In this document: positions 19,098 to 28,775 of the stretch, piece by piece | Layout of the letters: every line of letters begins with the position of its first letter | How positions within the stretch are numbered: position 1 is the first letter of the stretch | NCBI RefSeq assembly: GCF_001642805.2 | Contig: NZ_CP016948.1 | Coordinates: 2,232,001-2,296,000 of the forward strand | Length of the DNA: 64,000 bases | Source: Serratia surfactantfaciens | GTDB lineage: Bacteria > Pseudomonadota > Gammaproteobacteria > Enterobacterales > Enterobacteriaceae | Reading direction: 5' to 3' | The notes under the pieces: model-generated | What the model was told of the DNA's origin: nothing | Seen by the model: only the letters and a program-made list of their open reading frames with translations | Databases searched by the model: none | Translations under genes and position numbers: made by a program

Positions 19098-20818
<1,721 letters not shown>

Positions 20819-20854: not shown

Positions 20855-22834
20855 TTACCCGTTGCCGACATCGACAATCCGCAGCTCATAGACCATCGTC
20901 GCGTTCGGCGGGATCTGCGGCGCATAGCCCGTTTCACCGTACGCCAACTCCGGCGGCACCACCATCGTCAGCGAGCCGTGATTTTTCAGATGGCCTATCG
21001 CCTCGCGAAACAGCGGCGGATAGGCGGAGAGCGGCTGTGACATCACCTTCCCACTGCGATCCATATCCTGAATCACGCTGCCGTCGGTCAAGCTCTCTTT
21101 CACCACGATGTCCACCCGCGCATTTTCCGCAATGGCTTCATCACCGGCATAATCGATGCGATACCAGAAGCCGGCTGGCGACTTCTGCGTGCCCTTCTTC
21201 TTTTTAAACTCGGCGACGAACGCTTCGCCTTTGCTGGTTTGCGTCTTCGCCGCCTGGCTTCTGGCGTCGTTCACCGCTTTTTCCGACTCCGCCAATGCGC
21301 TGGCCAGCTGCGCATCGCTCAGTTGGTAATGGCCGTTGAAGGTATCAATTACGCCGGCCAGCAGCACGGTTTTATCGGGAATGATGCCCCAATTTTTACG
21401 CTCCGCCAGCATCGTTTGAATGTCGCGCCCCAGGGCGACACCGGCGGCATAGCTCTGTTGCTCCGGTTTTTTCTTGAGCGTCAGTGCATCCGGCAGCCAT
21501 TTGGCCCGCGCTTTCAGGCCGTTTAGCTCCTCCTGCAAGGCTTGCTGCGCCTGATGGGCGGCTGCCAGCGCCGTCGCCGTTTTATCCGCCTGTTGCGCCG
21601 CGTTATCCCGCTGCTGCGCTACCTGCGCGCTTTCTGCTACTGCTGCCGCCAAACGTTGTTCCAGCGTCTTAGCCTGCTCGGTTTGCTTTTGGTTTTTTTC
21701 CTGCAGCTGCGCCAGCTGCTGTTGCAGCTCGCCCGTCGTCTTGGTGGCCTCGGCCTTTTGCTGCGCCAACGCCGTCTTCAGGCTTTTCTCTTGCTGCTCG
21801 GCCTGCTGGCGCTGGCTGTCCCGCTCTTTCTGCAGCGTTGCCAGCTGCTGCTGCAGTTCGCCCGCCGTCTTGGCAGCCTCGGCCTTTTGCTGCGCCAACG
21901 CCGCCTTCAGGCTTTTCTCTTGCTGCTCGGCCTGCTGGCGCTGGCTGTCCCGCTCTTTCTGCAGCGTTGCCAACTGCTGCTGCAGTTCGCCCGCCGTCTT
22001 GGCAGCCTCGGCCTTTTGCTGCGCCAACGCCGCCTTCAGGCTTTTCTCTTGCTGCCCGCCCTGCTGTCGTTGGCCCTCCTGCTCTTTTTGCAGCAACGCC
22101 AGCTGCTGCTGGAGCGTATCCTGCGCCTTGGCGGCCTCGGCCTTCTGTTGTTCCAGTTCAGCGGCGGCCGCTTTTTTGTCCTGCTCATAACGCTGGCGCG
22201 CTTTATCATTGGCGGTTTGCGCCGCCGTCAGTTTTTCCCGCCAGACCTGCTGCGGAACGTTATCAGACGATTCAGACAACGTCGCCAACCGTTGTTCCAG
22301 CGATGCGATGCGTCGATCTCGCTCCTCGGTTTGTTGCTTTTGCTGCGCTAGCGCCGTTTGCGCCGCGGCTATTTGCGCCTGAGCCTGCCGCTCCTGCGGC
22401 GTCAGGTTCAACGCCTGCCGCACGCTGCTGGCAAAGTCGCTCAACGCGCTCAGATCGGGTGCCGCTGCCGGCTTATCGGCAGCCGCCAGGGAGGACGCGA
22501 CGCGCAACGCGGTCAGTTCCTGCTGCAATGATTGAATAGCGGCTTGCTGTTGATCCAATCGCGCATCTTTCTCGCGCAGCGTCTTTTGCAACTGCGCCAG
22601 TTGCCTCTTCTGAGTGGCCGCCTCGCGGGGTTGAACCGGCCGGCTCGCCGATTTTTGGGGTTCCTGGGGCTGGACGGCCGTTGCAGCGGCGTCCGCCGCC
22701 GGGGCATCCTGCCGCTGGTAGCGCTCGGCAAATTGCAACAGCGCAGGCACATCGTCATCTGCCACAGCAACCGTTGGCGCAAACGCCAAGGGTATCATCA
22801 GGCTCAGCAATGCCTTTCTCGCACGCAGGATCAT
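20855..22834 (-). CDS. Periplasmic FKBP-type peptidyl-prolyl isomerase with long repetitive coiled coil
   Basis: 659 residues. A signal peptide (MILRARKALLSLMIPLAFA, cleavage near VAVA-DDD) points to the periplasm. Residues about 75-440 are Gln/Ala/Lys/Glu-rich coiled coil, including three near-identical 43-residue repeats (QQKAEAAKTAGELQQQLATL ...). Residues about 440-540 resemble the FKBP N-terminal dimerisation region of Mip/FkpA (SYAAGVALGRDIQTML, VLLAGVIDTFNG), and the last ~105 residues are an FKBP domain (VPPELAYGETGYAPQIPPNATMVYEL). The usual active-site Trp is Leu/Phe (PLFREAIGHL), so catalysis may be weak. The start overlaps the upstream lipoprotein stop by 4 nt. Far longer than FkpA (~270 aa). 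Role unknown; a chaperone or envelope scaffold is an inference. Confidence 0.85.
   Translation of the reverse strand: MILRARKALLSLMIPLAFAPTVAVADDDVPALLQFAERYQRQDAPAADAAATAVQPQEPQKSASRPVQPREAATQKRQLAQLQKTLREKDARLDQQQAAIQSLQQELTALRVASSLAAADKPAAAPDLSALSDFASSVRQALNLTPQERQAQAQIAAAQTALAQQKQQTEERDRRIASLEQRLATLSESSDNVPQQVWREKLTAAQTANDKARQRYEQDKKAAAAELEQQKAEAAKAQDTLQQQLALLQKEQEGQRQQGGQQEKSLKAALAQQKAEAAKTAGELQQQLATLQKERDSQRQQAEQQEKSLKAALAQQKAEAAKTAGELQQQLATLQKERDSQRQQAEQQEKSLKTALAQQKAEATKTTGELQQQLAQLQEKNQKQTEQAKTLEQRLAAAVAESAQVAQQRDNAAQQADKTATALAAAHQAQQALQEELNGLKARAKWLPDALTLKKKPEQQSYAAGVALGRDIQTMLAERKNWGIIPDKTVLLAGVIDTFNGHYQLSDAQLASALAESEKAVNDARSQAAKTQTSKGEAFVAEFKKKKGTQKSPAGFWYRIDYAGDEAIAENARVDIVVKESLTDGSVIQDMDRSGKVMSQPLSAYPPLFREAIGHLKNHGSLTMVVPPELAYGETGYAPQIPPNATMVYELRIVDVGNG
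21740..22140. repeat. Tandem 129-bp repeat inside the FKBP gene
   Basis: About three copies of a 129-bp unit, almost identical. The marker GGCTTTTCTCTTGCTG recurs at 21781, 21910 and 22039, exactly 129 bp apart. Each unit codes for 43 residues of coiled coil, so copy-number change stays in frame. Confidence 0.95.
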
Positions 22835-23235
22835 TTGGCGCGTTCTCCGCGCTCAGCCAGTCCGGTCATCATTGCAGAACTGATGTCCGCACAAAGGCGG
22901 TTGGTACGATAACGATATAGCGCGTCGACGGTTTCCTGCGTGTCCGTCTTGACCCGTTGGCGTACCCCGGCATATTGCGCTGCACCGCCCATCAAGGTAT
23001 CGAATTCGCGTTTGAATTTTTGGTACTTTTCGTTATCCATGCCGCGCATCGCATCCAGTTCGCGCTGACATTGCTGCATGCGTTCGGCCTCACGCTGCCG
23101 TTTGTCTTGCTCCGCAATTTCTTCTGCGCTGGGCGGCTTGCTTAAGGTAGAAACAGGCCGCTTGGCGGTCTGACAGCCGGTCAGGGTCAAGGTCAGCAAA
23201 AGCGCAGCGGTCAAACAGTGTGCCGTTCGGGTCAT
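22831..23235 (-). CDS. Outer-membrane lipoprotein, function unknown
   Basis: 134 residues with a lipoprotein signal peptide: charged start MTRTAH, hydrophobic stretch, lipobox LTGC with Cys21; Gln at +2 predicts outer-membrane sorting. The mature part is a charged helical segment (SAEEIAEQDKRQREAERMQQ) followed by a helical region ending in LCADISSAMMTGLAERG. ATG 23233-23235 has AAGGAG upstream; the frame is open to 23388 without support. It is translationally coupled (ATGA overlap) to the FKBP gene, so the two likely act together at the envelope. No family recognised. Confidence 0.82.
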   Translation of the reverse strand: MTRTAHCLTAALLLTLTLTGCQTAKRPVSTLSKPPSAEEIAEQDKRQREAERMQQCQRELDAMRGMDNEKYQKFKREFDTLMGGAAQYAGVRQRVKTDTQETVDALYRYRTNRLCADISSAMMTGLAERGERAK

Positions 23236-23544: not shown

Positions 23545-23575
23545 CATAAAAAAAGCCCCGGCAATACGCCGGGGC
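23545..23575 (-). terminator. Left copy of a duplicated terminator
   Basis: Sequence beginning CATAAAAAAAGCCCCGGC and ending CGGGGC: stem GCCCCGGC / GCCGGGGC with A run on the plus strand, thus a terminator for minus-strand transcription. No minus-strand gene feeds into it from the right. The same 31 bp recur at 25505-25535 with one mismatch. Confidence 0.85.
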
Positions 23576-23673
23576 ATGACTTTACGCTGTATCAGCGTTC
23601 TACAAACCTTATCGACTGTTTCAATCGTCCCGACTGATTGACAATCATGTTGCCAACCAACAGGAGAAATTTC

Positions 23674-25494
23674 ATGAGCAATATGATTAGTGTAAATAAT
23701 ATCAGTGAATTGCGTAATCTGACGCCAGTTACAGATGACCAGATTGTCTTTTTAGTTTCTCACACCGCCGGACGTTTCGCCGGCGGCGGAGAATTCTATT
23801 ATGCGAAAACGGATACAACCAGTGCGGACAATAACGGCACCGTGGTGGTGACAACGGGAGGAGCCCGCTGGAAACGACTAGAGCAGAAACTCAGTTTCGA
23901 TCACTTCGGCGCCGATCCCAGTGGTGCCTCCGCCTCGGATGCAGCAATCAGCGCGACATTAACCTATGCCGCGAGTTTAAAAAACAAAGTGGTCTATGCT
24001 TCGGAAAATGCTCAATATCTGCTGACCAGTGCTCAACCTATCAACGTCGCTAACGGCGTCACTGTGAGAGGCTCCCGTCGCGGTATTGCTCAAGGCCCTG
24101 CAAGCCTTACAAGCAATGGCCCTAATCGGGCAGGCCTTGCGGACGACAGTGCTTTCATTATCAAAAAACCCGCAAGTACGGTTTGTTTCGCCTGCGATAA
24201 GAATATTGTCTTTGATGGCTGGTCGTTCCTCTACCCGGATCAAAAATATACCGCCACCCAGCCGGAGGCATTCGTTCAATACGGTGCCACCATTACCGCA
24301 GCCGGCGCTCTGTCAGTCGCCAACTGCCGTTATGTAGGCGCCTATGACTTTGTTGAAGCTCGAGGAGAAGCCAACAACTTTGAGAATATCTACGGTTGGG
24401 CAGTCCGCTGCGACTACCGGGTTTATGAAAGCAGGGACATCAACAGATTTACCAATGTTCACGTCAATGCCAATGTTGTGCGTCCGACAGAAAACGCGGT
24501 TACTGCCTCTATCGCCGTAGCCGGTTCTTGTGCTTTCAATTTCGATCGCCACGACAATACGTTTATGGTGAATGTATTCTCTTATGGCAAAAAGATCTTT
24601 ATCAAAACCACAACACAAGGAACCTCCTATTTAGGCGGTCTCAGCCTAAGCAACTTCATGGCAGACAGAAATGGTACCGGAATTGATATCGACTCAGATT
24701 CCTCCGCCAATATTCAAATCACCAACGGCTCTTATATTAATGACTATGGTGATGCCGTTGGGGGGTTCCTGGTATTAAGAAAATCTACTGGCCAATCTAA
24801 TATCACCCCTGTGCAAATCAGCAATGTTAGCTTCGCTACCGCCAATGGACCGAAGAGCTCACTCTCTCCTCAGGCTATTCGCTTCGAAGCAAACGCTGGA
24901 TATCAACTCTCATTCAGCAACACCGTTATGCCAATGTGGACAAACGGCAGTCTGAACAATGAAGCTGGTTACAACATTCTCAGAGGCACACTGAGCATTG
25001 CACAACGCAGCTATCAGCTGCATGAGGCCCCGCTAAATTATTTGACGAATAGCAATCTGATCGCCATCGGTGCTGACAATCAGCCTACAGGCTGGTTTAT
25101 TGACGGGAAACTGACGGTAGACAGCAATCTTCTGACGGCCACTGGCGACAACCCGGCCTACAAAGGTTTGGGTCAACGTATTCATCGGAGCATGGGACCG
25201 AGGACATTCTGGGCCATCGCATCCTCTATCGGCGATCAATCCACCGCGCAAGCTTCGACTGGCATTTGGGCCCGCTCGTTCAACGATAACTATACCGACA
25301 CTGTCGAGAGCAATCAGGCTATTCCCTGGATACGCATCGGCAACCTCTACTACGCGCGTTTTGTCATGAACAACAATCGCACTATCCACGATATCTTGGT
25401 CAATCCCGGCAGTGGCAATAATACGGTTCGCATTTTAGCCTGCGGCATTAGCCCGGGTGAAATCTTCGACTTCTCGCCTGACACGTTGCAATAG
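23674..25494 (+). CDS. Orphan phage tailspike-like protein, predicted beta-helix (possible polysaccharide depolymerase)
   Basis: 606 residues. The N-terminal ~70 residues (ISELRNLTPVTDDQIVFLVS ... GGGEFYYAKTDTTSADNNGT ... GGARWKRL) look like the particle-binding or neck module of phage tailspikes. FDHFGADPSGASASDAAISA is the usual opening of a pectate-lyase-like right-handed beta-helix, which fills the middle (many short Asn/Gly-rich turns such as NITPVQISNVSFATANG). The last ~150 residues look like a separate beta-sandwich, possibly sugar-binding. No signal peptide. ATG 23674 has AGGAG 8 nt upstream; the TTG at 23638 has none. GC is visibly lower than in flanking genes and no phage structural gene is nearby. 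Which sugar it binds or cuts cannot be told from sequence. Confidence 0.75.
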   Translation: MSNMISVNNISELRNLTPVTDDQIVFLVSHTAGRFAGGGEFYYAKTDTTSADNNGTVVVTTGGARWKRLEQKLSFDHFGADPSGASASDAAISATLTYAASLKNKVVYASENAQYLLTSAQPINVANGVTVRGSRRGIAQGPASLTSNGPNRAGLADDSAFIIKKPASTVCFACDKNIVFDGWSFLYPDQKYTATQPEAFVQYGATITAAGALSVANCRYVGAYDFVEARGEANNFENIYGWAVRCDYRVYESRDINRFTNVHVNANVVRPTENAVTASIAVAGSCAFNFDRHDNTFMVNVFSYGKKIFIKTTTQGTSYLGGLSLSNFMADRNGTGIDIDSDSSANIQITNGSYINDYGDAVGGFLVLRKSTGQSNITPVQISNVSFATANGPKSSLSPQAIRFEANAGYQLSFSNTVMPMWTNGSLNNEAGYNILRGTLSIAQRSYQLHEAPLNYLTNSNLIAIGADNQPTGWFIDGKLTVDSNLLTATGDNPAYKGLGQRIHRSMGPRTFWAIASSIGDQSTAQASTGIWARSFNDNYTDTVESNQAIPWIRIGNLYYARFVMNNNRTIHDILVNPGSGNNTVRILACGISPGEIFDFSPDTLQ

Positions 25495-25504
25495 TCTCTC
25501 GCGG

Positions 25505-25535
25505 CATAAAAAAAGCCCCGGCAATACACCGGGGC
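25505..25535 (-). terminator. Right copy of the duplicated terminator (end of cutC unit)
   Basis: Same 31-bp hairpin as at 23545-23575, one mismatch. Here it makes sense: it lies about 90 bp beyond the cutC stop, with the T run on the minus strand. Confidence 0.88.
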
Positions 25536-25625
25536 CTGGTACTTGCGCGACCGCCGAGGGCCCAGCGTCACGCAAAGGGGTCTTACGGCCCGGAAACCGG
25601 TTGTCAAACGCGGTTAGCTGCGTGT

Positions 25626-26384
25626 TTATGCGCTTTGCGCCAAGGGATCAACCAAGGCCAGCGCGTTTTTCATCGCCTCCACCATTTCGCCATCCACGCA
25701 ATAATGGCTAAATTCGTCAAACTCGTTGTCGGAGCACATGGTGACCCCCGCCTTGCGGTAACGCATGGTCGACGGCACCAGATGGCCGGAGGAGCTGTGC
25801 AATTCGTGCAGGCCGATATCGACAAACTTGTGCAGATTGCTGAGGCGCACGCCAGCGCCCGCCATGATCACCGGCCCCTGACTGGCCTGGCGCAAATCGC
25901 GCAGCAGCGGCAGACCCAGCTCGGCGCTCTGCTGTTGGCCGGAGGTCAGAATGCGCGCCACGCCCAGGTCGGTCAGCTGCTCGAGCGCCACCATCGGGTT
26001 CTGACACATGTCGAACGCGCGATGGAAGGTCACCGCCATGCCCTCACAGAGCTTCATCACTTCGCCCATGCGCGGCAGATCGATGTGCCCTTCTTCATCC
26101 AGCATACCGACCACCACGCCAGGGAACCCCATCTCGCGGATCTGGCAAATATCCTGCTTGATCACCGCGAAATCCACCGCGCCGTAGCAGAAATCGCCAC
26201 CGCGCGGGCGTACGATCGGATGTACCGGGATCGAAACCCGCTCGCGCGCCAGACGCAGCGTGCCATAACTCGGCGTCAATCCCCCTTCGCTCTGGCTGGC
26301 GCACAACTCGATACGATCGGCGCCCGCCCGTTCGGCCGTCAGCGCACAGTCGACGCTAAAGCAACAAACTTCCAGTTTTATCAT
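25626..26384 (-). CDS. cutC: CutC family protein (copper homeostasis)
   Basis: TIM-barrel protein linked historically to copper tolerance in E. coli; the direct biochemical role remains debated. 252 residues with [43 protein letters not shown] and [14 protein letters not shown] 26382-26384 (MIKLEVCC) fits E. coli CutC (248 aa) and has GGGGGTG upstream; the open frame continues 12 codons without similarity. Confidence 0.95.
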
Positions 26385-28197: not shown

Positions 28198-28646
28198 AAA
28201 AACCTCAAAACAACGAGCGCAAAGTTAAACGCCGTAATTTACACGGTGGTGGCCGTATTCGCCAGGGATACGCGCCAGTTCCGGCGGTTTTCTGGCATCG
28301 GCAGAAAACAAGAAACCGATACCCTTTAAGGTGGGAATATACAATTGGCAATAAAATAAAAAATCAGATTTTTCGCACCTCATTATACTTTTTAATCATG
28401 ACGCCACTATTTAAGTTATTTTACACAAGTTCAACCCGCACCGAGTCGTTAAAAACGATTGAGTTACTTCGTTTGTCCGGACTTTACTCATGCTTAGAGA
28501 GCATGTAAAACAACAAACACAACTCATTGTATAAGAAGAAAATAAAATCGTTAAATAATTAAAAATCTAAGGATTATCTTAATTTCCATCCGGCCAATTG
28601 ATTCACCAAGGCAACTCGGCTACCTTGGTGGAAAATTTAATTCGAG
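28198..28646. other. AT-rich intergenic region upstream of the small membrane ORF
   Basis: About 450 bp much richer in A/T than its surroundings. It holds the yecM promoter side, a TATACT-like hexamer at 28384-28389, a perfect CATGCT-TAGAG-AGCATG inverted repeat (28490-28506) and a second, longer inverted repeat at 28604-28630. A 36-codon frame at 28398-28508 has no ribosome-binding site and I do not call it. Confidence 0.5.
28604..28630 (+). promoter_or_regulatory. Hairpin in the presumed leader of the small membrane ORF
   Basis: CACCAAGG / CCTTGGTG, a perfect 8-bp stem with an 11-nt loop, ends 16 bp before the first ATG of the 42-residue ORF. Not followed by a T run, so more likely a regulatory RNA structure or a protein-binding palindrome than a terminator. 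Confidence 0.5.
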
Positions 28647-28775
28647 ATGATCATTATGCTATTGCTGACGATATCCTTGGTGTTGATAATTATCGCCGTA
28701 TACGCCATCTACCGTCATTTCAAATCGCGCAGCACCAATACGCTTGATGGCAGACGTCACAATAAAAAACGTTAG
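28647..28775 (+). CDS. Putative 42-residue single-span membrane protein
   Basis: Short frame starting MIIMLLLTISLVLIIIAVYA: a strongly hydrophobic N-terminal span of about 20 residues, then a basic tail (YRHFKSRS ... GRRHNKKR) that would stay in the cytosol. An alternative start at 28656 (MLLLTISLV) has GAG at better spacing. No family recognised; the size and layout fit small membrane proteins, including type I toxin peptides and regulators of membrane enzymes, but nothing proves either. It sits alone between yecM and argS, after a hairpin. Confidence 0.5.
   Translation: MIIMLLLTISLVLIIIAVYAIYRHFKSRSTNTLDGRRHNKKR

Follow-up and report, generated by a model that had tools for sequence, protein, structure and literature searches.

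What does a tailspike gene do in a bacterial chromosome, among core genes? The question is raised by a stretch of 64,000 nucleotides from Serratia surfactantfaciens (NZ_CP016948.1, positions 2,232,001–2,296,000; hereafter the window), in which a lone gene for a 606-residue tailspike-like protein lies in the interval between two core genes, presumably cmoB and cutC. Tailspikes have mostly been studied as parts of phages or prophages. Comparison with other genomes indicates that Serratia keeps lone headless tailspike genes between core genes, with one orthologous family per site. Since the window protein has neither an anchor nor an export signal and its gene is under selection, its simplest use would be that of an enzyme freed by lysis, and the proposal that it acts as a free polysaccharide depolymerase set free in this way is given a probability of about one half. 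Anatomy, fixed site, selection, and class are all read from sequence, and the enzyme activity, substrate, lysis release, and benefit built upon them are presumptive.

The original prediction of a tailspike-like β-helix was borne out by a structure model and a fold comparison, and the window protein is accordingly described as a predicted tailspike-type β-helix, for which a trimeric state and polysaccharide cleavage are presumed. In the model, the predicted local distance difference test score (pLDDT) falls below 50 at residues 138–154 and 423–432. The protein matches phrog_31454 with an E value of 4e-73 over residues 8–603, beginning at profile position 96 of 799. It comprises the neck, the β-helix, and the C-terminal portion of a phage-type tailspike. 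It begins at the neck and lacks the N-terminal stretch by which its closest phage relatives are anchored to the virion; among these, MAM_037 of phage phiMAM1 has 96 residues ahead of the neck. Homologues share the start position of the 606-residue open reading frame (ORF). Starting at the neck, the window protein has no P22-like head domain; PF09008 was found in the proteins of two other loci (L077 and L099). No export signal was detected in the first 60 residues by a hydropathy rule, and searches of Pfam and NCBIfam returned no family at E up to 1. Phage relatives reach 29–32% identity, with none above about 32% in 50,697 phage records, and a two-pattern scan of IMG/VR gave two loci, neither with a phage relative above that level. 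The closest database protein, which is named S. marcescens and represents 225 sequences, is 98% identical, and a second homologue search added one new protein.

This anatomy also brings to mind a WceF-like housekeeping enzyme that would leave living cells and trim their own exopolysaccharide (EPS). The neck and helix are common to the window protein and WceF (Foldseek E 5e-9), homologues are annotated as exopolysaccharide biosynthesis proteins, and signal-bearing relatives occur at EPS-type sites in Serratia. However, the window protein is devoid of signal and head domain, its presence is patchy, and its gene lies outside an EPS cluster, with cmoB, an FKBP isomerase gene, a lipoprotein gene, cutC, and a malY-like gene as neighbours, which makes such a housekeeping role unlikely.

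A neck alignment (A4), prompted by weak hits in further genomes, was used to search for the class. At least one hit was obtained in 22 of 30 Serratia genomes, at 46 places and with up to five per genome; in the wider family, 28 of 198 genomes, including three of Serratia, had neck hits, and four loci outside Serratia were inspected. The surroundings were inspected at all 46 Serratia places, 28 of them with three ORFs on either side, and no run of phage genes was seen around them, the neighbours being mostly judged by eye. Comparison of 20 neighbours at ten sites with NCBIfam (E 1e-10) placed 12 above the curated cut-off (QueA, Tgt, PspA, AcnA, CysB, YciI, CueR, GabD, an Ogt-type protein, AsmA, FliF, and FliS) and three below it, and five had no hit. 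Neck-bearing genes stand at 13 sites. The class is mostly signal-less, signal-bearing proteins being confined to two of the 13 sites (the EPS cluster and the asmA side); the high signal score of the cueR-site protein of genome G005 came from a hydrophobic neck strand and was judged a false positive. Nine of ten representatives match phage families, mostly from profile position 77 or later, and the remaining one (L192) gave no hit. Proteins of the same site are 61–99% identical over their full length (28–54% in the EPS cluster), whereas of the 76 pairs of sites that gave a hit, 45 are alike over just a short stretch (<35% coverage), which by its place is mainly the neck. Full-length identity within sites and mostly short neck likeness between them indicate a family of its own at each site. 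No description of lone signal-less chromosomal tailspikes was found in the literature, searched mostly at title and abstract level.

One further site lies in a flagellar cluster (L107 7349–9373, genome G020), where a 674-residue gene between the FliF/FliE-side and FliS/FliT-side flagellar genes encodes a helix and no neck; its protein matches phrog_31454 at 151–799 (E 9e-120), reaching the C-terminal end of the phiMAM1-type family. Three sites adjoin tRNA-modification genes, namely queA–tgt (L108), queH–yciI (L172), and cmoB in the window, possibly by chance, the names QueH and CmoB being assumed.

At the cmoB–cutC site, the 30 Serratia genomes were searched for the gene, and nine carry it at full length. 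In all nine, it lies directly downstream of cutC and convergent with it, and the same spot is occupied in G060 (Serratia sp. AKBS12, here assigned to a different genus). Altogether the gene stands on the cutC side in ten species, among them S. bockelmannii, S. ureilytica, S. inhibens, S. grimesii, and sp. PL17. Three intervals could not be resolved owing to a contig end (G010) or a decayed cutC (G027 and G028). The content of the interval varies, as the original prediction had expected: a P22-type tailspike occurs in S. inhibens and a GtrA/GT2/GtrII module in G002. The latter (L063 1536–4529) lies between cmoB and the FKBP gene and, with its GtrA, glycosyltransferase 2, and GtrII-type genes, resembles an O-antigen-modification module. 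In S. inhibens (L077 12846–15354, in the locus orientation of the interval comparison; contig C9 of G005), cmoB–tailspike–cutC, with cutC broken, is followed by a cmoB 3' end that is 97% identical to that of G017, against 92% to the cmoB that the genome itself carries. After this 3' end comes the second tailspike of the interval, a 652-residue protein with a P22 head-binding domain, which comes either from a foreign allele or from a misassembly. Visual inspection of the left flank in S. inhibens shows a degraded lipoprotein gene remnant. In G014, insertion sequence (IS) 3-like DNA separates the tailspike stop from the terminator of cutC (L057 5926–7067), and a similar end sequence is present in contig C9 of S. 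inhibens.

The gene is clearly under purifying selection by the measure of substitution rates. The ratio of nonsynonymous to synonymous divergence (dN/dS) is 0.073–0.145 in eight marcescens-group pairs, with lower values in the flanks (cutC 0.023–0.052, cmoB 0.007–0.043); the tailspike dS was saturated in six distant pairs. These ratios bear on the idea of a neutral relic of a lost prophage, which the tailspike type of the protein, a stop in the G024 copy, and a remnant elsewhere without an intact frame (L186) might suggest. Besides the low dN/dS, eight of the nine Serratia copies have no internal stop, and the adjoining proteins include no phage genes, so that a relic is hardly credible. The original statement that the window holds no phage genes can be upheld for the ten neighbouring proteins tested, at 17.7–32.3 kb of the window, among which no head, tail, or integrase PHROGs family was found; seven of them match PHROGs (six of unknown function and one tRNA methyltransferase) and three match none. 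The lower GC content of the gene was confirmed as well, with 0.45–0.52 in 500-base windows inside it versus 0.58–0.64 in most surrounding coding windows, and further dips occur near it, e.g., 0.39 at 28250–28749.

Several comparisons suggest that recombination in the flanks carries the gene from one Serratia to another. For two of the eight pairs, the tailspike dS lies far under that of both flanks (0.12 versus 0.24–0.32 for G000/G013, and 0.06 versus 0.21–0.22 for G001/G014, G000 being the window genome), indicating exchange between species, with dS serving as a rough guide because codon usage differs between tailspike and flank genes. A suggestive conflict appears in the trees: in that of the tailspike, G060, G004, and G024 split from G005 and the marcescens group (100/100), whereas in those of cutC and cmoB, G005 groups with G004 and G024 (95/93 and 100/99), with G060 on a long branch and a partial cutC in G005.

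The same history seems to be written in the two terminators that flank the gene. As originally described, they repeat each other in the same orientation, with 30 of 31 bases identical (32 of 34, or 94%, over the longer span); both are terminator-like on the minus strand, and only cutC reads into one, in agreement with the earlier view that the right copy alone has a gene to terminate. The region has no more terminator-like sites than its shuffles (5 vs 5.3), so the terminator scan alone is no evidence. A hairpin pattern allowing one mismatch at most matched exactly twice in the 5,117,644-base genome and the reversed control never, which ruled out a chance pair or a common terminator. Sixteen gene-less cmoB–cutC intervals were scanned (L075 and L076 lay outside the scan): 13 have one copy, three none recognised, and none has two, much as had been anticipated for relatives without the gene. 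Among the nine gene-bearing Serratia alleles, two copies occur in G000 and G013, and the other seven have the cutC-side copy alone, six by the pattern and one (L074), missed by it, by eye. G060 likewise has one copy, on the cutC side, and the distant carriers G004, G005, G024, and G060 are without the left copy. The intergenic DNA left of the left terminator in G000 and G013 is 91–92% identical to that of the gene-less G009 and 73–82% to that of eight others, four gene-less and four gene-bearing; further left, within the lipoprotein gene, G000 no longer shows this contrast, and for G013 the closest is again G009 (96%, others 91–95%). The DNA right of the left terminator resembles the upstream region of other gene-bearing alleles, and the parent alleles have about ten bases in common at the join. 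Because the left-side DNA fits a gene-less haplotype, the right side a gene-bearing one, and the distant carriers are without the left copy, the duplicate terminator is best read as a scar left where a gene-less allele was joined to a gene-bearing one. In such an event, a gene-less chromosome with its cutC terminator would have received a gene-bearing allele together with that allele's own terminator copy; as a whole, join and exchange are well supported. A decayed left terminator in the one-terminator alleles was rejected: in four alleles the likeness is confined to the last 10 bases, with p 0.0015–0.0065 for the whole string and 0.19–0.52 without them.

The original prediction had instead taken the gene for cargo inserted with, or by recombination between, the terminators, with a role as decoy or in supplying phages with donor DNA. 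The single-gene cargo was supported, and the two copies in G000 and G013, next to one or no recognised copy in the 16 gene-less intervals, would fit insertion, as would a loss of the gene from G009 by recombination across the repeats, which could have occurred. Nevertheless, the left copy is absent from seven of the nine carriers, and where present it adjoins DNA of the gene-less haplotype, so that insertion with or between terminators found no support. The low identity of the phage relatives gives no sign of recent donation, and a cytoplasmic protein would make a poor decoy; cargo of this kind is very unlikely, and of the functions first proposed a depolymerase fits best.

A hint of lysis control came from the yciI site, where the tailspike gene, in either orientation relative to yciI, is apparently SOS-controlled, to judge from its upstream sequence. 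All seven genes at this site (G003, G006, G009, G011, G018, G021, and G023; L168–L170, L172, and L177–L179), which are related and not independent, have CTGTN8ACAG 19–29 bases ahead of the start. With a LexA matrix built from 17 E. coli sites (scores 13.4–27.0), six boxes scored 23.8–28.3 and one 18.1, and of 20,000 random 200-base windows from other loci five reached 18 and three 23.8. The strict pattern CTGTATATNNATACAGTA matched one to five times per genome in six genomes (control 0), including the yciI-site gene in G006, G009, G011, and G023. At the cutC site, the best scores were 11.0 (G001 and G014) and 9.0 (G005), below all 17 E. coli sites. No upstream 7- to 10-mer shared among 17 representatives exceeded the shuffle maxima, and Rcs, CRP, Fur, and sigma-S patterns gave no valid upstream hit, an isolated match in a wrong-strand stretch of G060 being left unused; in a few rows (acnA–cysB, L109, and L191) the automatic start choice was wrong. 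SOS control at one site of the class would also suit a detachable spike of a phage-like particle, encoded at a distance from the particle genes and borrowed by a tailocin, a prophage, or an infecting phage in the manner of TspA from the Rhodobacter gene transfer agent, which is likewise a lone gene, beside lysS, and co-regulated with its particle. Yet the window protein appears to have no long N-terminal docking domain, and this use is quite improbable.

For the free depolymerase, the protein would fold in the cytoplasm as a trimer and leave it when the cell lyses, be it through a phage, SOS-driven lysis by a prophage or tailocin, or a holin-type release system, whereupon the freed enzyme would cut a polysaccharide of the surface or matrix, either of kin or of competitors. 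A more specific and tentative version, which may well prove wrong, holds that a site-fixed repertoire, partly LexA-controlled, strips capsule, O-antigen, or matrix from neighbours after lysis. Type 10 secretion was considered too and is just a possible exit route (PMC9527704, PMC10847048); the Serratia chitinases are described as crossing the inner membrane by Sec (PMC9527704).

A number of observations weigh against the free depolymerase. Its activity, trimer state, expression, and release all rest on inference, and confidence in the model is medium (pLDDT 74.4; template modelling scores of 0.3–0.5 in Foldseek). Phage families with a short N-terminus exist, phrog_27156 and phrog_23042 matching the neck after only about 14–27 residues, so a short N-terminus is no proof of a free protein. 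The gene is absent from the resolved cmoB–cutC interval in 18 of the 30 genomes and has an internal stop in G024, so that it is dispensable. The window gene is without a LexA box (best score −0.4, p 0.32), and no good box was found at any site except yciI, so that lysis release is transferred from one site of the class. In addition, the neck search of the window genome returned only the window gene, and in six of the eight pairs the tailspike dS is not clearly reduced relative to both flanks.

If these proteins are free depolymerases, Serratia, which keeps anchorless tailspikes as ordinary chromosomal genes at a dozen or so fixed sites and under purifying selection where measured, would own a host-tuned enzyme collection that might serve as population-level phage defence or as a weapon, removing phage receptors from kin or opening up competitors. 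Such a reservoir could explain resemblances between host and phage spikes. Enzymes released by lysis in this way would be a novel public good, and phage receptor-binding genes would have a home outside prophages. Because alleles with and without the gene exist in nature, the question can be tested by a simple deletion.

The features of the locus are collected below. The FKBP-type isomerase has a long repetitive, coiled-coil-like N-terminal part, and its gene and the small lipoprotein gene were co-present or co-absent across the cmoB–cutC intervals compared.

Features of the cmoB–cutC interval, with positions counted from the first base of the window
Feature	Position	Strand	Basis or remark
cmoB (presumed name), left core anchor of interval	19847..20818	+	conserved across genomes
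FKBP-type isomerase gene	20855..22834	-	Pfam FKBP_N and FKBP_C
Small lipoprotein-like gene, left neighbour	22831..23235	-	
Left terminator copy; no gene reads into it	23545..23578	-	best read as terminator of gene-less allele
Likely join of gene-less with gene-bearing parent allele	23569..23580	.	about ten similar bases, CCGSGGCCTG; allele comparison
Shine-Dalgarno AGGAG	23662..23666	+	sequence; ahead of ATG; present too in other marcescens-group alleles
Headless tailspike-like gene, 606 residues	23674..25494	+	ORF, Shine-Dalgarno, phrog_31454 match, structure model
Neck domain, about residues 5–80	23686..23913	+	matches AM24, CBA120, and K2-phage tailspikes; neck alignment A4
β-helix, about residues 70–455	23881..25038	+	predicted model and fold comparison
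Right terminator copy, terminator of cutC	25505..25538	-	copy 120–123 bases from cutC in most relatives scanned
cutC (presumed name), right core neighbour	25626..26384	-	adjoins tailspike gene in all carriers

Among known systems, phage morons are single genes of lower GC, and the window gene resembles them in both respects. Unlike a moron, it lies outside a prophage, occupies the same site throughout the genus, and is apparently exchanged via host flanks; the likeness first drawn to morons fails in the strict sense, since no prophage is there. Neck and β-helix are shared with the tailspikes of the Serratia phages phiMAM1 and 2050H1, with TSP2 of CBA120, and with the tailspike proteins (TSPs) of K2 phages. 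The phiMAM1 spike aligns with the window protein over residues 9–604 at 29% identity; it differs in the residues ahead of its neck, about 100 more at the C-terminus, and a place in a tail gene cluster.

WceF of Pantoea stewartii is, like the window protein, a bacterial protein with tailspike neck and β-helix; it is a trimer that hydrolyses stewartan, the cell's own polymer, and its authors make the case that enzymes of this type stay inactive in the cytosol (PMC7949094). Unlike the window protein, WceF has a twin-arginine translocation (Tat) signal, a P22-like head domain, and a gene in an EPS cluster (PMC7949094). TspA docks by an N-terminal β-sandwich. In the window protein, no stretch ahead of the neck could form an additional N-terminal domain, and no particle is known for it. 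According to the preprint on TspA, its gene stands alone beside lysS, is kept across an order, and encodes a tailspike that may, in its authors' view, be freed at lysis (PMC13420450). The window gene is alike in being lone, beside a core gene (cutC), and kept across the ten species.
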